A DNA stretch of 35,596 bases from a virus: positions 1-35,596 of IMG/VR virus record IMGVR_UViG_3300035670_000732. One strand, written 5' to 3'. How positions within the stretch are numbered: the first letter of the stretch is position 1; every line of letters starts with the position of its first letter. Shown here piece by piece: positions 3,922-34,202 of this stretch. A program made the translations under genes and the position numbers. The notes under the pieces are model-generated. The model was not told where the DNA came from. It saw only the letters and a program-made list of their open reading frames with translations, and did not search any database.

Positions 3922-4616
3922 TACTGTGCAAATGTGAAGTTGAGGTAAATGACCGTGCTGCCTGGCGTTTCTACATTGAGCTTTCTCACCAGAATGTTCC
4001 CGGTGGTCTGGATTAAGCTCTTGTAGCGGTTGCCGGCAAAGTCAGTCAATACAGGGCCGTATATATCCCGACCTGGCCGAAATGGTTCTGTAAGCTGGGC
4101 CACCTGGCACCAGGTTTGCAGGTTCACCGTCACGTTTTCTACGTATGTGCCTGCTACGCTGCCGCTCACGCAAATAATCTCGCCTTGCTTGTCGGTGCGT
4201 ACCAAGGGGCTGAAGCTGTTCAACCCGATCGTGTCAAGATTGTCTTTGATGCGGTACCGCTTTAAATTGGCAAAAGCGGTTTGGCCTGCACCGGTCCCGA
4301 AGCGTGCAAAGCGGGTGAAATAGCGGTCTACTGGAGTAGCGTCTTCGTTGTTCTTCTGCACTACCGTTTCATCCACGATAAAGTTGGTACTCACCGCCCC
4401 GCCATGGAAGAACAGCACCTCGCCACCGTGGAATATCCAGCCGTCTGTGGCGGTGCCTCCGGTCACTACCACGCCATCCAGAATGATGCTGCCGTCGCCT
4501 ACGATCTTTGCCAGGTTCTCAATGGCCTGGGTATAGGCGGTCTGCATAAATCCCAGTGTGGCGTCGGATTCGAGCGGGAACCCGTTGGGCTGCGTGTCAA
4601 AATCTGCTCGGGTCAT
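3921..4616 (-). CDS. Putative baseplate/tail-fibre structural protein
   Basis: 231 residues. It opens with 'MTRADFDTQPNGFPLESDAT', then a helix and a Gly/Val-rich beta region ('IILDGVVVTGGTATDGWIFH'). This pattern is seen in Bacteroidota phage proteins that sit between baseplate J/I and the fibre and bear the fibre attachment. It overlaps the downstream gene by 1 nt and follows the upstream gene directly. No catalytic motif is evident. The structural role is inferred from composition and position. Confidence 0.7.
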   Translation of the reverse strand: MTRADFDTQPNGFPLESDATLGFMQTAYTQAIENLAKIVGDGSIILDGVVVTGGTATDGWIFHGGEVLFFHGGAVSTNFIVDETVVQKNNEDATPVDRYFTRFARFGTGAGQTAFANLKRYRIKDNLDTIGLNSFSPLVRTDKQGEIICVSGSVAGTYVENVTVNLQTWCQVAQLTEPFRPGRDIYGPVLTDFAGNRYKSLIQTTGNILVRKLNVETPGSTVIYLNFTFAQ

Positions 4617-15025: not shown

Positions 15026-15511
15026 TTAGCGCTGCGTAGCGCGGTATTCTTTTCCGTACTCGCTCCGGTACAGTGAGCAAAACAGTTCATAGTTGCTGGC
15101 CTTGAGGGCTTCAAGCGCAGCCGGATCTTCTTTGGAAAGCTGGCCAAAGGTTTTGCCATTGTAGGTGGCTTTGCCGGCGCCGCTATCGGCGTTGACAAAC
15201 TGATGCAGTTTGACGGCAGGCTGCAATCCATCCAGGATCGCTTTCGTGCTTTCGAAGTTTGCATCGGCCAATGCCGCAAAGTGCGGGCGCTGCGCTTCGG
15301 TGATCTTGCCGGCTTTTACGGCGTCAGATAGCAGAGCATCCACATTGGCTTTCTGGGCCTCGGCCTGCAGCTGTTCGAGCTGCGCAACGCGAGCGGACAA
15401 AGCGGCAACTTTTGCGGCTTCTGCTTTCAGGCGGTTGATCTCTGCCACCACGGCGGCAGGCTGGGCTGCTTCGCTCAAGTTGAGAGCAGCAGTGATTTCC
15501 GTCAGGTTCAT
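15026..15511 (-). CDS. Nested scaffold start within protease gene (Z-like)
   Basis: An internal ATG at 15511 (Met171) follows a locally A-rich stretch ('CAAAACCAAAATGACAAT') inside a GC-rich gene, the kind of unstructured leader Bacteroidota ribosomes prefer. Translation here gives a 161-residue coiled-coil protein without the protease domain, the same layout as Mu gpI/gpZ. It is a prediction from composition and family precedent. Confidence 0.5.
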   Translation of the reverse strand: MNLTEITAALNLSEAAQPAAVVAEINRLKAEAAKVAALSARVAQLEQLQAEAQKANVDALLSDAVKAGKITEAQRPHFAALADANFESTKAILDGLQPAVKLHQFVNADSGAGKATYNGKTFGQLSKEDPAALEALKASNYELFCSLYRSEYGKEYRATQR

Positions 15512-16021
15512 ATTGTCATTTTGGTTTTGTGCAGTTGGAGGAGGCAACGAGGGCACGGCGTTATCACTCAATTCAATGAGTTCGCCCTGGTCGTTGCGTT
15601 GATAGAGCTTTACAGCTTCTTTATTGGCGGGAATGTCGGTGAGGCTGATCTCAATGAGCTCGCACTCTGTAACCGTTGCGCGCGTTTGTCCCGGCTTGAG
15701 GTCTGCCGGATCGTCGGAAAATTTCAGCGGTACAATGCCGATGCTGAATGCTGAAACGTACCCTTTTTCATACTTGCGCTTCAGCTTCATGGCAAACTCG
15801 TCGCTCTCGTCAAACTCCGGATCATCGATCAGCATGTCCTGCCCTTCTTTGCGCAGTCCATTGATCTTGCCGATGGGCAGGATATCGTCTTCGTTGCCAG
15901 ACGTTGCCCTGGTGTGATTCCAAAGAAAGAGGCCGGTGTACCGGTCGGTCCGGATCCCTTCGGTTTTCACCCAGTATCCATACGAGTTCAACGATTCATT
16001 GCTTACGCGTGCACCTGGCAT
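15026..16021 (-). CDS. Prohead protease fused to scaffold (Mu gpI/Z-like)
   Basis: 331 residues. Residues 1-135 form the HK97-type/assemblin serine protease domain: 'GLFLWNHTRATSG' with probable catalytic His36, and 'GYVSAFSIGIVPL' with candidate nucleophile Ser90 or Ser93. Residues 136-170 are a Pro/Asn/Gln linker. Residues 171-331 are helical with a coiled coil 'AEINRLKAEAAKVAALSARVAQLEQLQAEAQK' and an acidic C-terminus, the internal scaffold. It is the first gene of the leftward late operon, next to the divergent promoter region. In Mu the scaffold Z is made from an internal start, and a matching internal ATG is present here. Confidence 0.9.
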   Translation of the reverse strand: MPGARVSNESLNSYGYWVKTEGIRTDRYTGLFLWNHTRATSGNEDDILPIGKINGLRKEGQDMLIDDPEFDESDEFAMKLKRKYEKGYVSAFSIGIVPLKFSDDPADLKPGQTRATVTECELIEISLTDIPANKEAVKLYQRNDQGELIELSDNAVPSLPPPTAQNQNDNMNLTEITAALNLSEAAQPAAVVAEINRLKAEAAKVAALSARVAQLEQLQAEAQKANVDALLSDAVKAGKITEAQRPHFAALADANFESTKAILDGLQPAVKLHQFVNADSGAGKATYNGKTFGQLSKEDPAALEALKASNYELFCSLYRSEYGKEYRATQR

Positions 16022-16164: not shown

Positions 16165-16596
16165 ATGACGAACGCGAAAAAGAAGGAGCTGGCGCAAAAG
16201 CTGTACATGCAAAACTTCTTCACCACGCAGAAGGAGCTGGCGGAGTACCTCGAAGTGACAGAGCAAACCCTCGGGAAATGGATCAGAGCCGGGAAATGGG
16301 AAGACATGCGCGAAAGCTACCTCATTTCCTTTACGGAGGAAATGGCCTTTATGAAGAAGCAACTGCGCATCATGCGGGAAAACCTGGAATCCGAAGGCAG
16401 AACCACCTTCAACAATAAAGAGATGGATGTCATCACCAAACTTACGGCTGCTATCCGAAACCTGAAAAGCGAGATCGGCATAGAAGACGTCATTGATGTA
16501 TCCATCAAAGTGGTAGAATGGCTGCGCACGCACGATGTGCGCAAAGCCCAGGAGGCCGCAGAAACCTTTCACGCATACATCAAAGCAAACAGCTGA
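16165..16596 (+). CDS. Terminase small subunit (HTH)
   Basis: 143 residues. An N-terminal helix-turn-helix ('NFFTTQKELAEYLEVTEQTLGKWIR', about 18-42) is followed by helical oligomerisation segments ('EMAFMKKQLRIMRENLESEG', 'IEDVIDVSIKVVEWLR'). It is immediately upstream of the terminase large subunit, with TGATG overlap. It recognises phage DNA (or the phage end) and recruits the packaging motor; in transposable phages packaging is headful from the phage end. Confidence 0.85.
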   Translation: MTNAKKKELAQKLYMQNFFTTQKELAEYLEVTEQTLGKWIRAGKWEDMRESYLISFTEEMAFMKKQLRIMRENLESEGRTTFNNKEMDVITKLTAAIRNLKSEIGIEDVIDVSIKVVEWLRTHDVRKAQEAAETFHAYIKANS

Positions 16597-18128
16597 TGGG
16601 AAAAGCAGGCCGCATAGACGCCATTAAGAAATGGGAACAGTACAGGAACAACTTGATTCGGGAAACGCCGGTGCCGATCGAAACGGAAAGCGAGAAGGCC
16701 AAACGCATCGCTCATCTGGAAAAGCACCCGGAGGAATGGTTCCAGTTTTACTTTCCAAATTACTATAAGGCATCACCGGCCAAATTCCACATTGCCAGTA
16801 CAAAACGTATCCTGGGTAATGCGGAATGGTACGAGGTGCGCGCATGGAGCCGGGAGCTGGCCAAATCCACCAGGTCGATGATGGAATTCCTGTACCTGCT
16901 GCTGACCAAGAAAAAGCGCTACATGTTCATGGCCTCCAACAGCTATGATAACGCCGTGCGCCTGACTACCCCCTACAAGATACAGCTTGAAAGCAACCGG
17001 CGTATCATCAACGATTACGGACCGCAGGCCAGCCTGGGCAATTGGACGGACGGCGACTTCACCACACGCAGCGGGTTTACCATCCGCAGCATCGGGGCCG
17101 GGCAAAGCCCACGCGGTGCGCGTAATGAAGAAATCCGCCCGGATATTATCTGCTTTGACGACTTCGATACGGATGAAGAATGCCTGAACTCCGATATCAT
17201 TGACAAGAAATGGAAGTGGTGTACAGAAGCGCTCTTGCCCACACGCTCAATCAGCGAAGCTACGCTGGTAGTCTGGTGCGGCAACCTCATTGCCGAGGAT
17301 TGCTGCATCATGCGCGCACAGGAGTTTGCCGACAAAGTGGACGTGGTGAACATCCGCGACCGCGAAGGCCGCAGCTCATGGCCAGCCAAAAACACGGAGG
17401 CGCATATTGACCGCGTTCTGTCCACCCTTCCTTACTCCGCACAGCAAAAGGAGTACTACAACAACCCGGTCAACGAAGGCAAGGTCTTTAAGGAAATGAC
17501 CTGGGGCAAGTGCCCACCGCTCAAAAGCATGGACCTGATCTGCGTATACTCCGACCCGAGCACCAGCAACAGGGATAAGCCCAGCGCACGCAGCAAGCAC
17601 CAAAACAGTACAAAGGCCGTGGTGATCGTGGGCAAAAAAGGACTTCGGTACTATATATATAAGGCGTGGGTGGACGTGGTGAAGAACTCCGTATTCGTGG
17701 ATTGGCTCTACCAGGCCAAAAAGGAACTGCCGGAAAACGTGCAGGACTATATCTACATCGAAAACAACACGCTGCAAGCCCCATTTTACGAGCAGGTGTT
17801 GCTGCCGCTGATCAAGGAGAAAGGAAAACAGGAGGGCCGCATCCTGAACGTACAAGGCGACGGGCGCAACAAGCCCGACAAATACTTCCGGATCGAAGGC
17901 AACCTGGAACCTATCAACCGCATGGGGCTGCTCATTCTGAACAGCGACGAGAAAGACAACCCGCACATGAAGCGCCTCGAAGCACAGTTCAAGAGCGTAA
18001 GCCCCAACAGCAAGACCATGGACGGACCCGACGCCGTAGAAGGCGCCAAATGGATCCTGGACAACAAAGCACTCGTTTTCTCCATCCGGCTGGGCGCGCA
18101 GCGCAATCCGGCCCGCAAAAAATACTAA
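16596..18128 (+). CDS. Terminase large subunit (Mu gp28-like)
   Basis: 510 residues from the ATG overlapping the TerS stop. ATPase domain: Walker A-like 'SRELAKST' (85-92), Walker B-like 'DIICFDDF' (183-190), and the coupling motif near 'VVWCGN' (226-230). Nuclease domain: 'ICVYSDPS' with Asp320, and 'DYIYIENN' about residue 400, typical acidic RNase H-fold positions; a third acidic residue is near 'PDAVEGA'. It packages DNA into the prohead. It starts a typical order with gp36-like, portal and MuF genes. Confidence 0.92.
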   Translation: MGKAGRIDAIKKWEQYRNNLIRETPVPIETESEKAKRIAHLEKHPEEWFQFYFPNYYKASPAKFHIASTKRILGNAEWYEVRAWSRELAKSTRSMMEFLYLLLTKKKRYMFMASNSYDNAVRLTTPYKIQLESNRRIINDYGPQASLGNWTDGDFTTRSGFTIRSIGAGQSPRGARNEEIRPDIICFDDFDTDEECLNSDIIDKKWKWCTEALLPTRSISEATLVVWCGNLIAEDCCIMRAQEFADKVDVVNIRDREGRSSWPAKNTEAHIDRVLSTLPYSAQQKEYYNNPVNEGKVFKEMTWGKCPPLKSMDLICVYSDPSTSNRDKPSARSKHQNSTKAVVIVGKKGLRYYIYKAWVDVVKNSVFVDWLYQAKKELPENVQDYIYIENNTLQAPFYEQVLLPLIKEKGKQEGRILNVQGDGRNKPDKYFRIEGNLEPINRMGLLILNSDEKDNPHMKRLEAQFKSVSPNSKTMDGPDAVEGAKWILDNKALVFSIRLGAQRNPARKKY

Positions 18129-18131
18129 GGC

Positions 18132-18539
18132 ATGTTCCTGGACAAAGAAGACCTGTACCTCGCTATCCTGGAGGATGAGCTGGAGGAAATCACCCGCGGA
18201 GATGATACCCTGATCAATCAGGCCATCAGCGCAGCCATAAGCGAGGCGCGTACCTACCTGTACGACAGCTACGAGGTAGATACCATCTTTTCCGCCACGG
18301 GAGCAAACCGGCATGCGCTGCTGCTGGGCCTTGTTTCCGACATGGCTATTTATCTGCTGGTGGCCAGGGTACAGGCCGGGCAGGACGTTTCCGACCGGAA
18401 AGACCGGTACGATCGCGCAGTGGCATGGCTCAAGGCAGCCAAGAAAAGCGAAACATATTCAGACCTGCCCAGAAGGGAGGAAACCGTACAAACACATTTT
18501 GTGTCAGGTTCACTCCCAAAACGAAACAATAGGTTTTAA
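18132..18539 (+). CDS. DUF1320-like head-tail protein (Mu gp36 family)
   Basis: 135 residues, helical, with 'MFLDKEDLYLAILEDELEEITRG', 'INQAISAAISEARTYLYDSYEVDTIF' and 'YDRAVAWLKAAKKSE', the pattern of the DUF1320 family (Mu gp36), believed to act at the head-tail connector. It begins 3 nt after TerL. In Mu it lies after the capsid; here it lies between TerL and portal. Confidence 0.8.
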   Translation: MFLDKEDLYLAILEDELEEITRGDDTLINQAISAAISEARTYLYDSYEVDTIFSATGANRHALLLGLVSDMAIYLLVARVQAGQDVSDRKDRYDRAVAWLKAAKKSETYSDLPRREETVQTHFVSGSLPKRNNRF

Positions 18540-18582: not shown

Positions 18583-19911
18583 ATGAAAATGGAAAAACGC
18601 CCATTCTATCAGGTCGGAAAAAATAACGGCTCTAAACGCCTTATTTCGCGTCGCACTCTTTTGCCGGCCTGGAATGCGTTTAAAGGGCTTTTTGTGGAGG
18701 AACTGGCAGCCCCTAAAAAGAGCTACCGAAGCTCCAACGCGCCTGCAATCATCAACAACGTGACCGTGCGCCCGGTGGCCCGTGGCAGCGTGGATATACA
18801 GAAGTGGCGCAATGCCCTCATACTGGCCGAAGGCGAGTATGATCAGCGGGTGCTGCTGTACGACCTGTACGAAGATATGGTGCTGGATGGATTCCTGATG
18901 GACGCCATCGACAAGCGCGTGAACGACATCACCAACTGCTCGCTGCAGTATGTGGATGCCAACGGCAAACCGGCGGACCTGATCAACGAGATCCTGGAAA
19001 CCACCTTCTTCGAAGACTTCCTTTCCGAAGTCATGCAAAGCAAGTTCTGGGGGCATAGCCTTATGGAACTTGACTGGGGAGCACCAGGAACCAAAACCGG
19101 CCACACCCATCTCATCCCGCGCAAGCACGTCAAACCCCGCCTGGGCATTGTGACTCGCGAGCAATGGGGCATGGACGGCATTTCCTACAGGGAGCTGCCC
19201 AACATCATTGAAGTGGGCAAACCCAACAGCCTGGGCCGCCTGCTGCAGGTGAGCCAGTATGTGATCTATAAGCGCGGCGGATTTGGCGATTGGGCAGAAT
19301 ATGCTGAAACCTTTGGGACGCCGTTCCGATGGGCCACCTACAACAACGACGAAAGCCGCAAGGTGCTGGAAAGCGCCCTGGCTCAGGCAGGCACAGCCGG
19401 GTACGTGGTGGCCCCGGTAGATGCCAACCTCCAATTCCTCAACGCCAACCCGAGCGGACAGGGCGATATGCTCTTTGGCCGCCTGCGGCAGGCCTGTAAC
19501 GAGGAAATAAGTATTACCATCCTGGGCAATACCATGACGACCACAGAGGCCAGAAGCAGCGGATACGCACAGAGCAAAACGCATGCCGAAACCCAGGAAG
19601 CCATTCACAAAGCCGACCGGCGTTTTGTGCTGCGGATCCTTACCGAAAAACTGACGCCATACCTTGAACGCCTTGGATACCCGGTAAACGGCGGATACTG
19701 GCAGTATGTGGATGAAGAAAAGCTCTCGCTGAGCGAGCGCATTGCAATCGATATGCAGGTGGCAACCAAAGTACCGATCCCGAACTACTACTGGTACGAG
19801 CGGTATAAGATACCAGCTCCCACCGAAAGCGACGACACCGGCGAAGCGGCAGAGGAAGACGAAGGCGAAGAAACGCCGGGCGACAACCAGGGCGCCCGAA
19901 AAAAGGCCTGA
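18583..19911 (+). CDS. Portal protein (DUF935, Mu gp29-like)
   Basis: 442 residues. 'MVLDGFLMDAIDKRVNDITNC', 'QSKFWGHSLMELDWG', 'PRKHVKPRLGIVTREQWGMDGISY', 'FGTPFRWATYNNDES' and the 'LGNTMTT' segment correspond to DUF935 portal proteins. The dodecameric ring is the DNA-entry vertex. A Glu/Asp-rich tail ends ...A-R-K-K-A-stop. The last codons (CGA AAA AAG GCC TGA) form a slippery site followed by a 10-bp stem, so some ribosomes should continue into the MuF gene (total about 833 residues). The preceding 43-nt gap is AT-rich; the start codon at 18583 has a second ATG two codons later. Confidence 0.92.
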   Translation: MKMEKRPFYQVGKNNGSKRLISRRTLLPAWNAFKGLFVEELAAPKKSYRSSNAPAIINNVTVRPVARGSVDIQKWRNALILAEGEYDQRVLLYDLYEDMVLDGFLMDAIDKRVNDITNCSLQYVDANGKPADLINEILETTFFEDFLSEVMQSKFWGHSLMELDWGAPGTKTGHTHLIPRKHVKPRLGIVTREQWGMDGISYRELPNIIEVGKPNSLGRLLQVSQYVIYKRGGFGDWAEYAETFGTPFRWATYNNDESRKVLESALAQAGTAGYVVAPVDANLQFLNANPSGQGDMLFGRLRQACNEEISITILGNTMTTTEARSSGYAQSKTHAETQEAIHKADRRFVLRILTEKLTPYLERLGYPVNGGYWQYVDEEKLSLSERIAIDMQVATKVPIPNYYWYERYKIPAPTESDDTGEAAEEDEGEETPGDNQGARKKA

Positions 19912-19956
19912 GCCGTAGAGTACGCCGCCTGCTGGAACTCCGCAGGCTCTACGGCT
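19899..19956 (+). promoter_or_regulatory. Candidate -1 programmed frameshift signal, portal to MuF
   Basis: The heptamer A AAA AAG (19899-19905) is in the portal frame (CGA AAA AAG GCC TGA). The spacer GCCTG (19906-19910) is 5 nt. The stem is AGCCGTAGAG (19911-19920) with CTCTACGGCT (19947-19956), a perfect 10 bp, topped by an inner CCTGC/GCAGG 5-bp stem (19928-19932 with 19942-19946) and a 9-nt loop. The -1 frame has no stop until the MuF stop at 21083. Heptamer type, phase, spacer length and stem strength match textbook -1 frameshift signals such as those of IS3-family transposases. Confidence 0.82.
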
Positions 19957-19994
19957 CGCATGATAGCGGCTGCTCCTGCGCTCAGTGCCAGGAG

Positions 19995-21083
19995 GTGGAG
20001 GAGCTGACATTCAGCAACCGCTTTCAGAAAATACCGATGGCGGTGGTCAGCGACTACCTGCAAAAACTGCACGACCAAACCCTGGGCGCTACCGACATCC
20101 ATCAGCCACTCTGGCGGGAATACTTCACCCGTTTGCGGCAGTTTGCCGAGGCTGGATATGCGCGGCGGCTGGATGAAGCGCGCAGTGTGCAGGAGTTTGA
20201 ACTGTTTCGGCGCATGGAGCGTAACCTGGCCAGCTTCGCAGCCCATAAGCAAAACGCACTGACGGACGAGCTGCGCCGCTTGATGGTGGATCGCACAACG
20301 GGCATTAAGCGTACACTGCCGGAATTTCAAACCGCTGCACTAGATCTGCTTAAGCAGTATAATGATACCTGGTTGCGCGTGGAAGCTACGCACGCTACCA
20401 TCGCCGCTCAGCAGATCGAGAGCTGGCAGGAGATACAACAGCGCAAAGACCTATACCCATATCTGCGCTACGAAACGGCAGGAGATGACCGGGTAAGGCC
20501 AAAGCATAAGCTACTGGACGGGGCCGTGCATCCGGTAGATTCGGAATTCTGGGATGTGAACTACCCGCCTAACGGATGGCGCTGCCGCTGCAAGGTAATC
20601 CAGGTGGATGAGCCAGGGCGCGAAATGCAGGTCAACTTCCAGCCGGATAAGGGCTTTCGGCACAACGTAGGCAAAACCGGCCTGATCGTTGGCCCGGATC
20701 ACGCCTACTTCGATGTGAGCGTGCTGGATGGCGAGCGCATTACCAAACAGGCGTTTTCTTACCTGCATGCACTGGACCAGGCAGCCACCATGCAAAAGGC
20801 CATCAGCGCATTTGCGGGCAAAGAACTGCCCTGGCAGGATGGGCGCAATCTGCGCGTGGATGATGCCGTACTACGCCGCATCCACCGCAGCAATCACCCA
20901 TCTCCGGATGTGCGCGATAAGATGCTGGCCGTGCTGGATATCTTCCTGCCTGAGCTTGTACTGATGGTAGAGCAGGACGATATGCGCATGTACCTGATCA
21001 CGCTCCTGGGTGAGCGCTTCTTCTGGCACATGCGCCAGGAGGACGCCTTGAGCATACTGGCCGATATTGCCCATACACCATAA
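19995..21083 (+). CDS. MuF-like head morphogenesis protein (Mu gp30/SPP1 gp7 family)
   Basis: 362 residues if it starts at the GTG at 19995; there is no ATG in frame before 20037, and the frame is open back to 19809. The MuF signature is at about 155-200: 'RYETAGDDRVRPKHKLLDG', '..DSEFWDVNYPPNGWRCRCKV', with the conserved His, Asp and CRC. The upstream -1-frame portion (19905-19994) encodes a basic Leu/Arg helix and C-x-C-x-x-C ('SGCSCAQCQEVEE'), which looks like real protein lost if GTG is the start. I therefore think the main product is a portal-MuF fusion by frameshifting (392 residues after the slip). A free product by GTG initiation is not excluded. MuF enters the head with the DNA or helps assembly. 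Confidence 0.88.
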   Translation: MEELTFSNRFQKIPMAVVSDYLQKLHDQTLGATDIHQPLWREYFTRLRQFAEAGYARRLDEARSVQEFELFRRMERNLASFAAHKQNALTDELRRLMVDRTTGIKRTLPEFQTAALDLLKQYNDTWLRVEATHATIAAQQIESWQEIQQRKDLYPYLRYETAGDDRVRPKHKLLDGAVHPVDSEFWDVNYPPNGWRCRCKVIQVDEPGREMQVNFQPDKGFRHNVGKTGLIVGPDHAYFDVSVLDGERITKQAFSYLHALDQAATMQKAISAFAGKELPWQDGRNLRVDDAVLRRIHRSNHPSPDVRDKMLAVLDIFLPELVLMVEQDDMRMYLITLLGERFFWHMRQEDALSILADIAHTP

Positions 21084-21093
21084 TATATAGCGT

Positions 21094-21522
21094 ATGAACC
21101 CGGCAGACTTTTTAGGTAAGATCGTGCGCAGGATGCCGCAGATTAAACGCGACATTCTGCAGACCATCATAGCCGTGGAGGCGGAACGCATGTGGGCGGA
21201 AAACTTCAGGAAGGAAGGATTCACCGACCGCAGCTTCACGCCCTGGGCGCCGCGCAAAAAACCAGAGAAGCCAAAGCGCGCACTGCTCGTAAAGACCAGC
21301 ACGCTCAAAGGCCATGCCCTGAAAGGCCGCAAAACGCCCAACAGCGTGGACTTCGTTTTTCCGCTGGAATATGAGCGCGTACACAATGAGGGCCTAAAGG
21401 CGGGACGCGGCAAAGGCTTTATCATGCCAAAGCGGCAATTCATTGGCCCGTCGGCAGAGCTCAACAAGCGCATCGACAGCAAGGTAAAAACCTATTTGAA
21501 TAACCTTTTAAACCGTCCCTAA
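21094..21522 (+). CDS. gpG-like virion morphogenesis protein (Mu gp31 family)
   Basis: 142 residues. 'VEAERMWAENFRKEGFTDRSFTPWAPRK' is the signature of the phage virion morphogenesis (Mu G) family, followed by 'LVKTSTLKGHALKGR' and 'YERVHNEGLKAGRGKGFIMPKRQFIGPS', the usual 'HN.G....G....PKRQFIG' ending. It acts in tail completion/head-tail joining. It follows MuF by 10 nt, the same order as in Mu (gp30-gp31). Confidence 0.88.
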   Translation: MNPADFLGKIVRRMPQIKRDILQTIIAVEAERMWAENFRKEGFTDRSFTPWAPRKKPEKPKRALLVKTSTLKGHALKGRKTPNSVDFVFPLEYERVHNEGLKAGRGKGFIMPKRQFIGPSAELNKRIDSKVKTYLNNLLNRP

Positions 21523-32138: not shown

Positions 32139-34202
32139 TTAGTACATGCTTCGGATATCGATATCCACTTCGTCGTCTTCGTCGTCTCTGGCGCTGGTAT
32201 TGCCCACCGGCACCGTGACAAGTACTTTGGCTTTGCCGGTATCCTTCCACTCGCCGATGCGCTCTGTGAGCCATTCGTTTTCGGCGCTGGAGGCTGCGGC
32301 TTTATCGGTATAGCTGCCCAGGAGCAGCTCCACTTCTGATCCTGCTTTCGTGATCGCTTCAAGGTCAGCCTTGCGGCGCTCCTCCAGGTCTTTCAGGCGG
32401 GCTTTCATCTTGCCCGTTTTGCGATCGGCGCCAGGTCCGTACATCTGTACCTTGCGCTGCTCATGCGCTTCGCCCAGGTACTTACGGTTTACGTCTTCGC
32501 TGGCTTCGAATAGGTACACCGTGCTCAGGTCGTCCATGTCGTAGCAAATAGCCACGTCACGATAGTGAGAAATTGTGCTATACTCCTGCACCGTGTACAT
32601 ATACTCGATGCGCTGTATTTCGGTCTTGATCAGGCCCTGTGAGCGAAGGCGTACCCGCTTTTCCAGGCCAAAGAGCTCGACAAATGTCCAAGGCTCTACG
32701 GTGGTGGTATGTGGGCGCTCGCATTGTGCGTGCAGCTCACGCGGGCTCAGCTCGATGGACGCATATTTGCGGCTGTAGTGGCTCAATGGCGTAGACCTGT
32801 ATGCCTCGATGATCCGATTTGCCTCCTGGAAGGCTGCGTCGAAATCCCAGCCATCCTTATTGGCCTTACGCTGCATGTGCGCCAGGTACTCCGCAGAGCG
32901 GTGCGCATAATCCCGGCGGCTCTGGATGCCTTCGCCGTAGTAATAGTCGCTGTCCTGCATGAAGACCGTCTGCAGCGTGCCAAACATGCGCTCGATGCGC
33001 GCTTTGCCGGTGGCTGTGCTGGTTTTTGTTACCTGCATGCCTTCGCGCAGCAGCCTGCGCTCGACGGTTTCCCATTCCGGGGTGTTGTGGCCCGGGAACT
33101 TATCCGCTACCAGCTCGTAAGGCAGGTATCCGGAGACGGCAACGGCCATTTTGATCGCGCAGATCCAGCCCCAGCGGTCTTCTTTAGTATCCAGGTGCCA
33201 GCCCAGGATGTCGCCGGAATACACATCGCGCACGGCGATGATGTATAGGAACTCCTGGCGCCCGTCCTTGCCTTTGTGGCCGATGAGGTTGACCCGTGTA
33301 CCGTCCGCCTGCCAGCAGTCGCCGGCGAACATGGCGTTCTCTACCGGGATATAGCCCTTGTACATGCCGCCACGGCGGCCATTGCGGCCAAAACGCCCAT
33401 CGGCAGTTAGGTACTTGGTGAAAGGCTTGGCAAGCTCGTTGTTGAACCAGCTCACCGACGGCTTCGGCTTTACGGCCAGCTCGCACAGAAAGCGAAGCTT
33501 CCGGATGATGTGGCTGTTCGTGTAGTTCTGCGGCATGTTGCGCATCTGGAACAACCAGGCGACGATCTCCGGATCATCGTATTTCTTCGCGTTGCGGTTG
33601 CCCAGCCGGGGCAGGTCAATCACTTCCGTAATCGCCGCCCCGCCCTGGATGACCTTGAGAACCTTGTCTTTCAAAATGCGGTGTGTGCTGGGCAGGTAAG
33701 GCACGCCGGCGTGCGTGATGTCTTGGACAAACTCCACATAGAAGCTCGCCCGGCGCACATCGTAGCCGGAATCGCGCACATAATCAATTGCTGCCTGAAG
33801 CACCGCAGCTGCCTTTGCAAGCTGCACCGTTTTCGCCTCCGGATAGCCCGGATAAGCGTGCATATAATCGCGGTAGCCATGTTCTACCGCTTGCCGGATC
33901 ACATCCATCCATTTGCCGCGAGGCACCAGGGCGCCACCGCCGCGGAGCTCATCCGCCGGCGGCAGCTGCGCCTGATAACGGGGAGGGATCCTTTTGTAAT
34001 CGTAGTAGTACACCCCGTCCACTTTAGCCCAGCGCCAGCTTATACCGGTGTCTGGTGGGAATTTGGATGTGGCTTTTTTGGGGAGGCTTTCTTTGAAGCG
34101 GGACCGGGCTATACGGATATACTCGCTCGACAGCTTACAGTTTGCCATAAGCATTTTCTCTGACACCCAGATTTCCCCGCGCTTGCGCAACACGTCTTTC
34201 AT
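32139..34202 (-). CDS. MuA-like DDE transposase
   Basis: 687 residues (MuA is 663). The N-terminal DNA-binding region (1-75) includes 'EYIRIARSRFKESLP' and a winged-helix type 'ISWRWAKVDGVYYYDY'. The catalytic RNase H fold has Asp300 ('CWQADGT'), Asp367 ('ELVADKFPGH') and Glu404 ('GKARIERMFG'); the D-D spacing of 67 equals MuA Asp269-Asp336, though D-E is shorter. The beta-barrel domain follows, and the C-terminus is coiled, charged and Asp-rich, a probable MuB-contact region. It cuts and joins phage ends. It lies 2 nt from the Ner-like gene stop. Confidence 0.95.
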   Translation of the reverse strand: MKDVLRKRGEIWVSEKMLMANCKLSSEYIRIARSRFKESLPKKATSKFPPDTGISWRWAKVDGVYYYDYKRIPPRYQAQLPPADELRGGGALVPRGKWMDVIRQAVEHGYRDYMHAYPGYPEAKTVQLAKAAAVLQAAIDYVRDSGYDVRRASFYVEFVQDITHAGVPYLPSTHRILKDKVLKVIQGGAAITEVIDLPRLGNRNAKKYDDPEIVAWLFQMRNMPQNYTNSHIIRKLRFLCELAVKPKPSVSWFNNELAKPFTKYLTADGRFGRNGRRGGMYKGYIPVENAMFAGDCWQADGTRVNLIGHKGKDGRQEFLYIIAVRDVYSGDILGWHLDTKEDRWGWICAIKMAVAVSGYLPYELVADKFPGHNTPEWETVERRLLREGMQVTKTSTATGKARIERMFGTLQTVFMQDSDYYYGEGIQSRRDYAHRSAEYLAHMQRKANKDGWDFDAAFQEANRIIEAYRSTPLSHYSRKYASIELSPRELHAQCERPHTTTVEPWTFVELFGLEKRVRLRSQGLIKTEIQRIEYMYTVQEYSTISHYRDVAICYDMDDLSTVYLFEASEDVNRKYLGEAHEQRKVQMYGPGADRKTGKMKARLKDLEERRKADLEAITKAGSEVELLLGSYTDKAAASSAENEWLTERIGEWKDTGKAKVLVTVPVGNTSARDDEDDEVDIDIRSMY

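Follow-up and report, generated by a model that had tools for sequence, protein, structure and literature searches.

A predicted −1 ribosomal frameshift at the junction of the portal and MuF genes in Mu-like phages

Is the minor head protein MuF of the phage studied here made from a gene of its own, or is it attached to the portal protein by ribosomes that change frame on reaching the portal gene's end? The window, i.e. the whole stretch of DNA analysed, comprises the 35.6 kb of an IMG/VR virus record and displays a Mu-like gene set (Pfam and PHROG matches), including the following genes:

15026–16021, minus strand: Mu-like I protease
16518–18128, plus strand: terminase large subunit (PHROG 38), upstream neighbour
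18132–18539, plus strand: Mu Gp36-like head-tail adaptor (PF07030, PHROG 195), upstream neighbour
18583–19911, plus strand: portal gene of the Mu gp29/DUF935 type (PF06074, E 8e-68; PHROG 113 portal), zero-frame product of 442 aa
19995–21083, plus strand: MuF gene with the GTG start that a gene caller would choose; minor head protein of the SPP1 gp7/Mu gp30 family (PF04233, E 2e-15)
21094–21522, plus strand: Mu gpG-like virion morphogenesis/tail completion protein (PF05069, PHROG 26), downstream neighbour
32139–34202, minus strand: integrase-core ORF, transposase candidate (just below the Pfam cut-off)

The portal reached 229.6 bits with PF06074 (curated cut-off 23.9) and matched the solved phage portals 9khx and 8rka by profile; the adjoining MuF protein reached 58.2 bits with PF04233 (cut-off 29.6). 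The best matches of the MuF fold were phage head morphogenesis proteins, and a fold search of the MuF model against the PDB gave no significant match. PHROG 35074 (890 positions, “unknown function”) matched the portal and the MuF of the window alike and is, for this reason, an unnamed portal-MuF fusion family.

The initial annotation had proposed that both genes are connected by a −1 frameshift, and the elements described there were all recovered at the junction by direct reading:

19809–21083, plus strand: whole open −1 frame containing MuF
19899–19905, plus strand: slippery heptamer A AAA AAG in the portal frame
19905–19994, plus strand: −1 transframe segment ahead of any ATG, GTG or TTG, beginning with GLSRRVRRLLELRRLYGSHDSGCSCAQC...
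19906–19910, plus strand: 5-nt spacer GCCTG, the portal stop TGA (19909–19911) straddling its end
19911–19956, plus strand: putative stimulatory hairpin, a perfect 10-bp stem with an inner hairpin (arms 19911–19920, AGCCGTAGAG, and 19947–19956, CTCTACGGCT)

Heptamer and stop codon are separated by the three nucleotides GCC. The hairpin was calculated to fold with −30.9 kcal/mol (z = −3.95), and none of 200 dinucleotide shuffles was equally stable; a second calculation gave z = −4.5, and an Rfam search gave no match. The string AAAAAAG by itself is not rare (18 copies in the window); the junction holds the window's sole in-phase heptamer near the end of a long ORF with a −1 frame of at least 60 codons past the stop (both strands, broad heptamer list). 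The −1 frame remains open from 19809 through MuF, the first start-like codon being GTG 19995 and the first ATG lying at 20037; the C-x-C-x-x-C motif of its protein-like segment is located upstream of GTG 19995. Two elements of a canonical −1 frameshift signal, an in-phase X XXY YYZ heptamer of an efficient class and a stable structure 5 nt downstream, are thus found in the window itself, and the remark that A AAA AAG followed by a stem is an efficient bacterial signal agrees with the efficiency of this motif class in E. coli (PMC4066793). The predicted fusion protein would comprise 441 + 392 = 833 residues, in line with the size expected initially, and its junction would read ...ARKKGLSR.... 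A dnaX-type arrangement, in which the shift leads to the shorter product, was not present in the window: the zero frame is closed 3 nt past the heptamer, and the −1 frame is the long one.

Homologous junctions were compared in 205 portal/MuF loci, grouped into 97 clusters at 80% portal identity; the loci were retrieved via portal peptides, a few phage records identified through portal or MuF were added, and HMMs served to match the portal ORFs with their MuF ORFs. As portal peptides only were used for fetching, the junction had no influence on the choice of these loci. When viral contigs were scanned with one protein at a time, either the portal or the MuF of the window, no matches were obtained. 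Among the 97 clusters, MuF overlapped the portal end in the −1 frame in 55, shared one open frame with the portal in 37, overlapped at +1 in four and was separate in one. The −1 overlap clusters carried an in-phase slippery heptamer (T TTT TTC, T TTT TTT, A AAA AAG, A AAA AAA or G GGA AAG) in 54 of 55 cases, L086 being the exception, versus 10 and 7 in the two other phases; T TTT TTC alone occurred 41 times in phase versus two times and once in the others. In E. coli, motifs of these classes are the most efficient ones (PMC4066793). A second sample of genomes, chosen by HMM, contained 15 −1 overlaps (two of them, L231 and L232, from genomes already represented in the main set), 12 of which had an in-phase heptamer (none in L234, L242 and L251).

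All 72 T-type slip sites read NNT TTT TTC or NNT TTT TTT, while the residue before the FF pair varied (D, R, G, S, N and others) and other FF pairs in the same ORFs were encoded by NNT TTT TTC in only 8 of 88 cases; with the codons fixed and the preceding residue variable, the T-type site is conserved at the nucleotide and not only at the residue level. A-type heptamers are common in all phases of the lysine-rich portal tails, and the case for the window clade therefore rests on the fixed position, on the −1 peptide and on the stem: L140, L144–L146, L148, L149 and L090 likewise place a heptamer 3 nt ahead of the portal stop, with G GGA AAG, the slip motif of phage lambda, replacing A AAA AAG in L148 and L149. 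In the −1 overlap clusters, the zero-frame stop is often found exactly 3 nt after the slip. With regard to the window and its relatives together, the position of the portal stop is bimodal, either 3 nt past the slip site (before the hairpin) or 33–42 nt past it (after the hairpin).

The hairpin is conserved as a structure and varied in sequence. In 52 of 87 clusters, a GC-rich stem starts 6 nt past the heptamer, in 27 more 3–5 nt past it, spacers of 5–6 nt being the most frequent (contiguous-stem score 19.3 versus 12.4 in shuffles); 62 different 5' arms were observed, e.g. GCCCCG/CGGGGC, GGACAGG/CCTGTCC, GCCCTC/GAGGGC, GGGGC/GCCCC and GCCGTAG/CTACGGC. At least five of the first six stem pairs were kept in 70 of 72 T-type clusters versus 31.7 in shuffled controls, a control that matters because the pairing partner was picked as the best in each sequence, and all four Watson-Crick pairs occur at stem positions 5 and 6 of these clusters. 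The outer stem of the window, GCCGTAG/CTACGGC, is kept in L140, L144–L146, L148 and L090, with GTCGG/CCGAC in L149. The comparison of homologous junctions, suggested in the initial annotation as a check, accordingly found heptamer, phase, spacer, compensated hairpin and −1 segment conserved and natural in-frame fusions among the relatives. The slip-and-hairpin system extends across a large group of Bacteroidota Mu-like phages, the common gut hankyphages among them, and very probably makes some of the ribosomes shift frame there. In hankyphage p00 (L002, BK010646, positions 2926–2974), T TTT TTC is followed 6 nt on by GCCCCG/CGGGGC, and MuF lies in the −1 frame; the predicted transframe protein reads ...NWLKRFF|RESPGERRGSF... 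at the slip.

Next to no credence is given to a sequencing or assembly indel, or to gene decay, as the event that split an in-frame portal-MuF fusion in the window. In-frame fusions do occur in relatives, and the +1-offset loci L124, L142 and L199 resemble such accidents; the −1 relation together with a slip site is nevertheless shared by 54 clusters from independent contigs and cultured phages, the zero-frame stop often lies exactly 3 nt past the slip and the covarying hairpin is kept. As a family-wide explanation, sequencing error or a pseudogene is refuted by the recurrence of the −1 relation in independent clusters. The three loci with MuF at +1 to the portal (a homopolymer is nearby in L124 and L142) look like indels, real or due to sequencing, in a former fusion or −1 arrangement. 

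Slippage of the RNA polymerase at a homopolymer, instead of the ribosome, might also give rise to the fusion. Runs of nine to ten A in Peternella, fF4 and RR1-B, and those of the Winoviridae type, could slip in transcription; in the window and at most loci, however, the run consists of only six identical bases, and the in-phase X XXY YYZ motif, the 6-nt spacer and the covarying hairpin are elements of a ribosomal −1 signal. Transcriptional slippage is hence regarded as very improbable for the window. For Peternella_1 (L004, NC_062754, 2887–3013), the A-rich slip (A10) could be ribosomal or transcriptional; its MuF is annotated from GTG 3013, 98 nt past the portal stop, and homology to the window MuF begins ahead of this codon at 2911. 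Rhizobium phage RR1-B (L229, about 4190–4304) and Flavobacterium phage fF4 (L221, about 4185–4220) have −1 MuF frames and A9 runs, their MuF starts close to the portal stop being doubtful, and may represent further, possibly independent slippage cases outside the main group. In L252 and L256–L259, A-runs with overlapping in-phase heptamers (A AAA AAA AAG type) are situated 3 nt before the portal stop; the hairpins are mostly weak, and mostly no ATG or GTG precedes the MuF domain.

The coding properties of the −1 frame bear on whether MuF is simply a gene of its own, with initiation at GTG 19995 or ATG 20037, perhaps by coupling to the portal stop, heptamer and stem then being incidental. Both codons exist, and Mu and Proteobacteria-type relatives do start MuF separately: Mu, JBD25, Vibrio martha 12B12, Rhodobacter RC1, Mushu and a Pasteurella phage possess a separately started MuF and no in-phase heptamer (Flavobacterium lotta8-1 and FPSV-S1 differ, their MuF being at +1 to the portal). 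In 12 of 54 overlap clusters, including hankyphage p00, an ATG is furthermore present close to the portal stop and could start MuF separately; in the other 42, no ATG occurs within 20 nt of the stop. The annotated MuF of p00 starts at an ATG 4 nt before the portal stop. In the AlphaFold model of 19899–21080 (mean pLDDT 86), a short helix and a low-confidence stretch with CxCxxC precede the folded MuF, which begins from about residue 45, i.e. about at Met 20037; on this account, the pre-start segment is best seen as a linker and an internally started MuF could fold. An ordered metal site formed by CxCxxC is unsupported owing to the low pLDDT.

Against separate initiation, the starts are not conserved: the homologous place of ATG 20037 carries no start in most of L140, L090 and L144–L148, and the window clade lacks the conserved start near the portal stop that a Mu gp30-type gene would have. 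Across the overlap clusters, no ATG precedes the MuF domain in 26 of 54 and no ATG, GTG or TTG in nine, and a Shine-Dalgarno-like motif was found at none of 17 coupled ATGs. The segment ahead of the starts is moreover conserved protein: within the window clade it reads KK[GSA]LSR...LYG...H..GCxCxxC between slip and GTG, its length differences are whole codons, and the window's relatives gave a pooled pS of 0.46 versus a pN of 0.27. In the fused near relatives L147 and L151, the segment KKNLSRAAQVAQLYDFHHGGCKCDNC follows directly after the portal, with portal and MuF in one frame; this junction is a natural in-frame version of the predicted frameshift product. Together with the conservation of heptamer, phase and hairpin in 54 of 55 clusters, these features render a separately initiated MuF quite improbable. 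Compensatory stem changes and a conserved protein encoded by the −1 frame from the slip site complete the canonical signal, and the programmed −1 ribosomal frameshift predicted to yield a portal plus a portal-MuF fusion is considered highly likely: the proposal of the initial annotation gained support from conservation, phase, covariation, junction coding and natural fusions.

The fused class itself showed an unexpected feature: most fused clusters keep T TTT TTC and the hairpin within the linker (FFxxAP...), the heptamer being in phase in 25 clusters versus 0 and 2 in the other phases. A −1 shift in these clusters would end 5–30 codons later and give a portal without MuF, i.e. the dnaX-type relation of a shift towards a shorter product. 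The distance to the −1 stop was rejected as evidence in this class, being not shorter than background; with the stop no nearer than chance, the truncated product is supported at the nucleotide level by the conserved codons and the hairpin. In about 40% of the clusters, the polarity would be the reverse of that in the window, with the fusion as zero-frame product and a shift that would remove MuF. The arrangement switched at least 8–10 times on the portal tree (10 changes, 8 of them forced by well-supported branches, versus about 30 with shuffled labels). Phocaeicola massiliensis DSM 17679 (L103 = G001) contains three Portal_Mu prophages, one with a fused frame of 842 codons and two with frames of 460 and 466 codons; at least one of the two separate-length prophages is of the T TTT TTC −1 type (L232). 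The occurrence of both polarities with the same slip site and hairpin suggests that selection favours a mixture of two portal forms. It appears reasonably likely that one slip-and-hairpin cassette is kept while the MuF-continuing frame flips back and forth, a mixed portal/portal-MuF dodecamer being selected whichever form is the default.

With respect to the mechanism, ribosomes on the portal mRNA would meet A AAA AAG while the hairpin stands at the mRNA entry. The majority would read GCC TGA and release the 442-residue portal, whereas a fraction would slip back one base and read on into MuF, resulting in the 833-residue portal-MuF; in relatives of reversed polarity, unshifted ribosomes would produce the fusion and shifted ones a portal with a short tail. 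In the Mu-like phage JBD30, crown and wing of the 12-fold portal stay within the capsid (PMC11445458). The portal C-terminus is expected at the capsid-interior side; fused subunits that enter the dodecamer would thus bring MuF to the portal vertex on the inner side of the prohead, and the shift frequency would determine the ratio. In SPP1, gp7 binds the portal in 1–2 copies per capsid (PMC5576092); the same number of MuF copies would correspond to roughly 8–17% fused subunits by arithmetic. By analogy, we infer that a small MuF copy number may be fixed at the portal vertex, which is consistent with SPP1 gp7 and less clear for the reversed-polarity phages: these would need a high shift rate to reach 1–2 MuF, so that a different ratio or a processing of the fusion would have to be assumed.

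Related devices are known. As in the lambda gpG/gpGT-type tail assembly chaperones, a −1 frameshift would generate a minor, C-terminally extended protein of the structural module in a set ratio; unlike in lambda, head portal and MuF are concerned instead of tail chaperones, and the product is expected in the virion. In T7/T3 10A-10B and in the Lactobacillus A2 capsid, a −1 frameshift likewise extends part of the copies of a head subunit by a C-terminal domain (PMC5009743), although there the major capsid protein is extended and here a 12-copy portal by an internal minor head protein. The E. coli dnaX gene (tau/gamma) resembles the window in its A AAA AAG with downstream hairpin and the reversed-polarity loci in that the shift makes the shorter protein; the genes are unrelated, both polarities occur among the portal-MuF homologues, and an upstream internal Shine-Dalgarno stimulator is needed in dnaX (PMC5600365). 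The portal adjoins MuF in SPP1 (gp6/gp7) and Mu (gp29/gp30) as it does here; there, separate proteins with separate starts are joined by binding, gp7 of SPP1 being held inside the capsid bound to the portal (PMC5576092, PMC6316719), whereas a peptide bond would join them in the window phage. Portal-MuF gene fusions are already known (PMC7302621): in Microbacterium phages (clusters EA3/EA5/EA8 and EB; PMC7302621) and P. gingivalis phages (L003), both domains reside in one polypeptide, described or annotated as a plain gene fusion with no frameshift reported. Known phage frameshifts concern tail chaperones, major capsid and tail proteins (PMC5009743, PMC6316719). No prior report of a portal-MuF frameshift was found in the main texts of searchable open papers, including those on hankyphage, P. 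gingivalis phage, GeneTack and PRFect.

For annotation, the result implies a correction in a widespread phage group: gene calls often treat MuF as separate and give it a doubtful start, and the protein databases used for proteomics lack the shifted product. The question is testable in cultivable phages, e.g. hankyphages, for which gel-slice mass spectrometry of the capsid has been published (one replicate with four gel fractions; PMC12135933). Toxins are often attached to MuF proteins of phages. A frameshift in the portal gene would set a low MuF copy number by translation and place MuF, together with attached toxins, at the single portal vertex. If true, the arrangement would represent a stoichiometry device of head assembly and a case of reversible frameshift polarity within one gene family.
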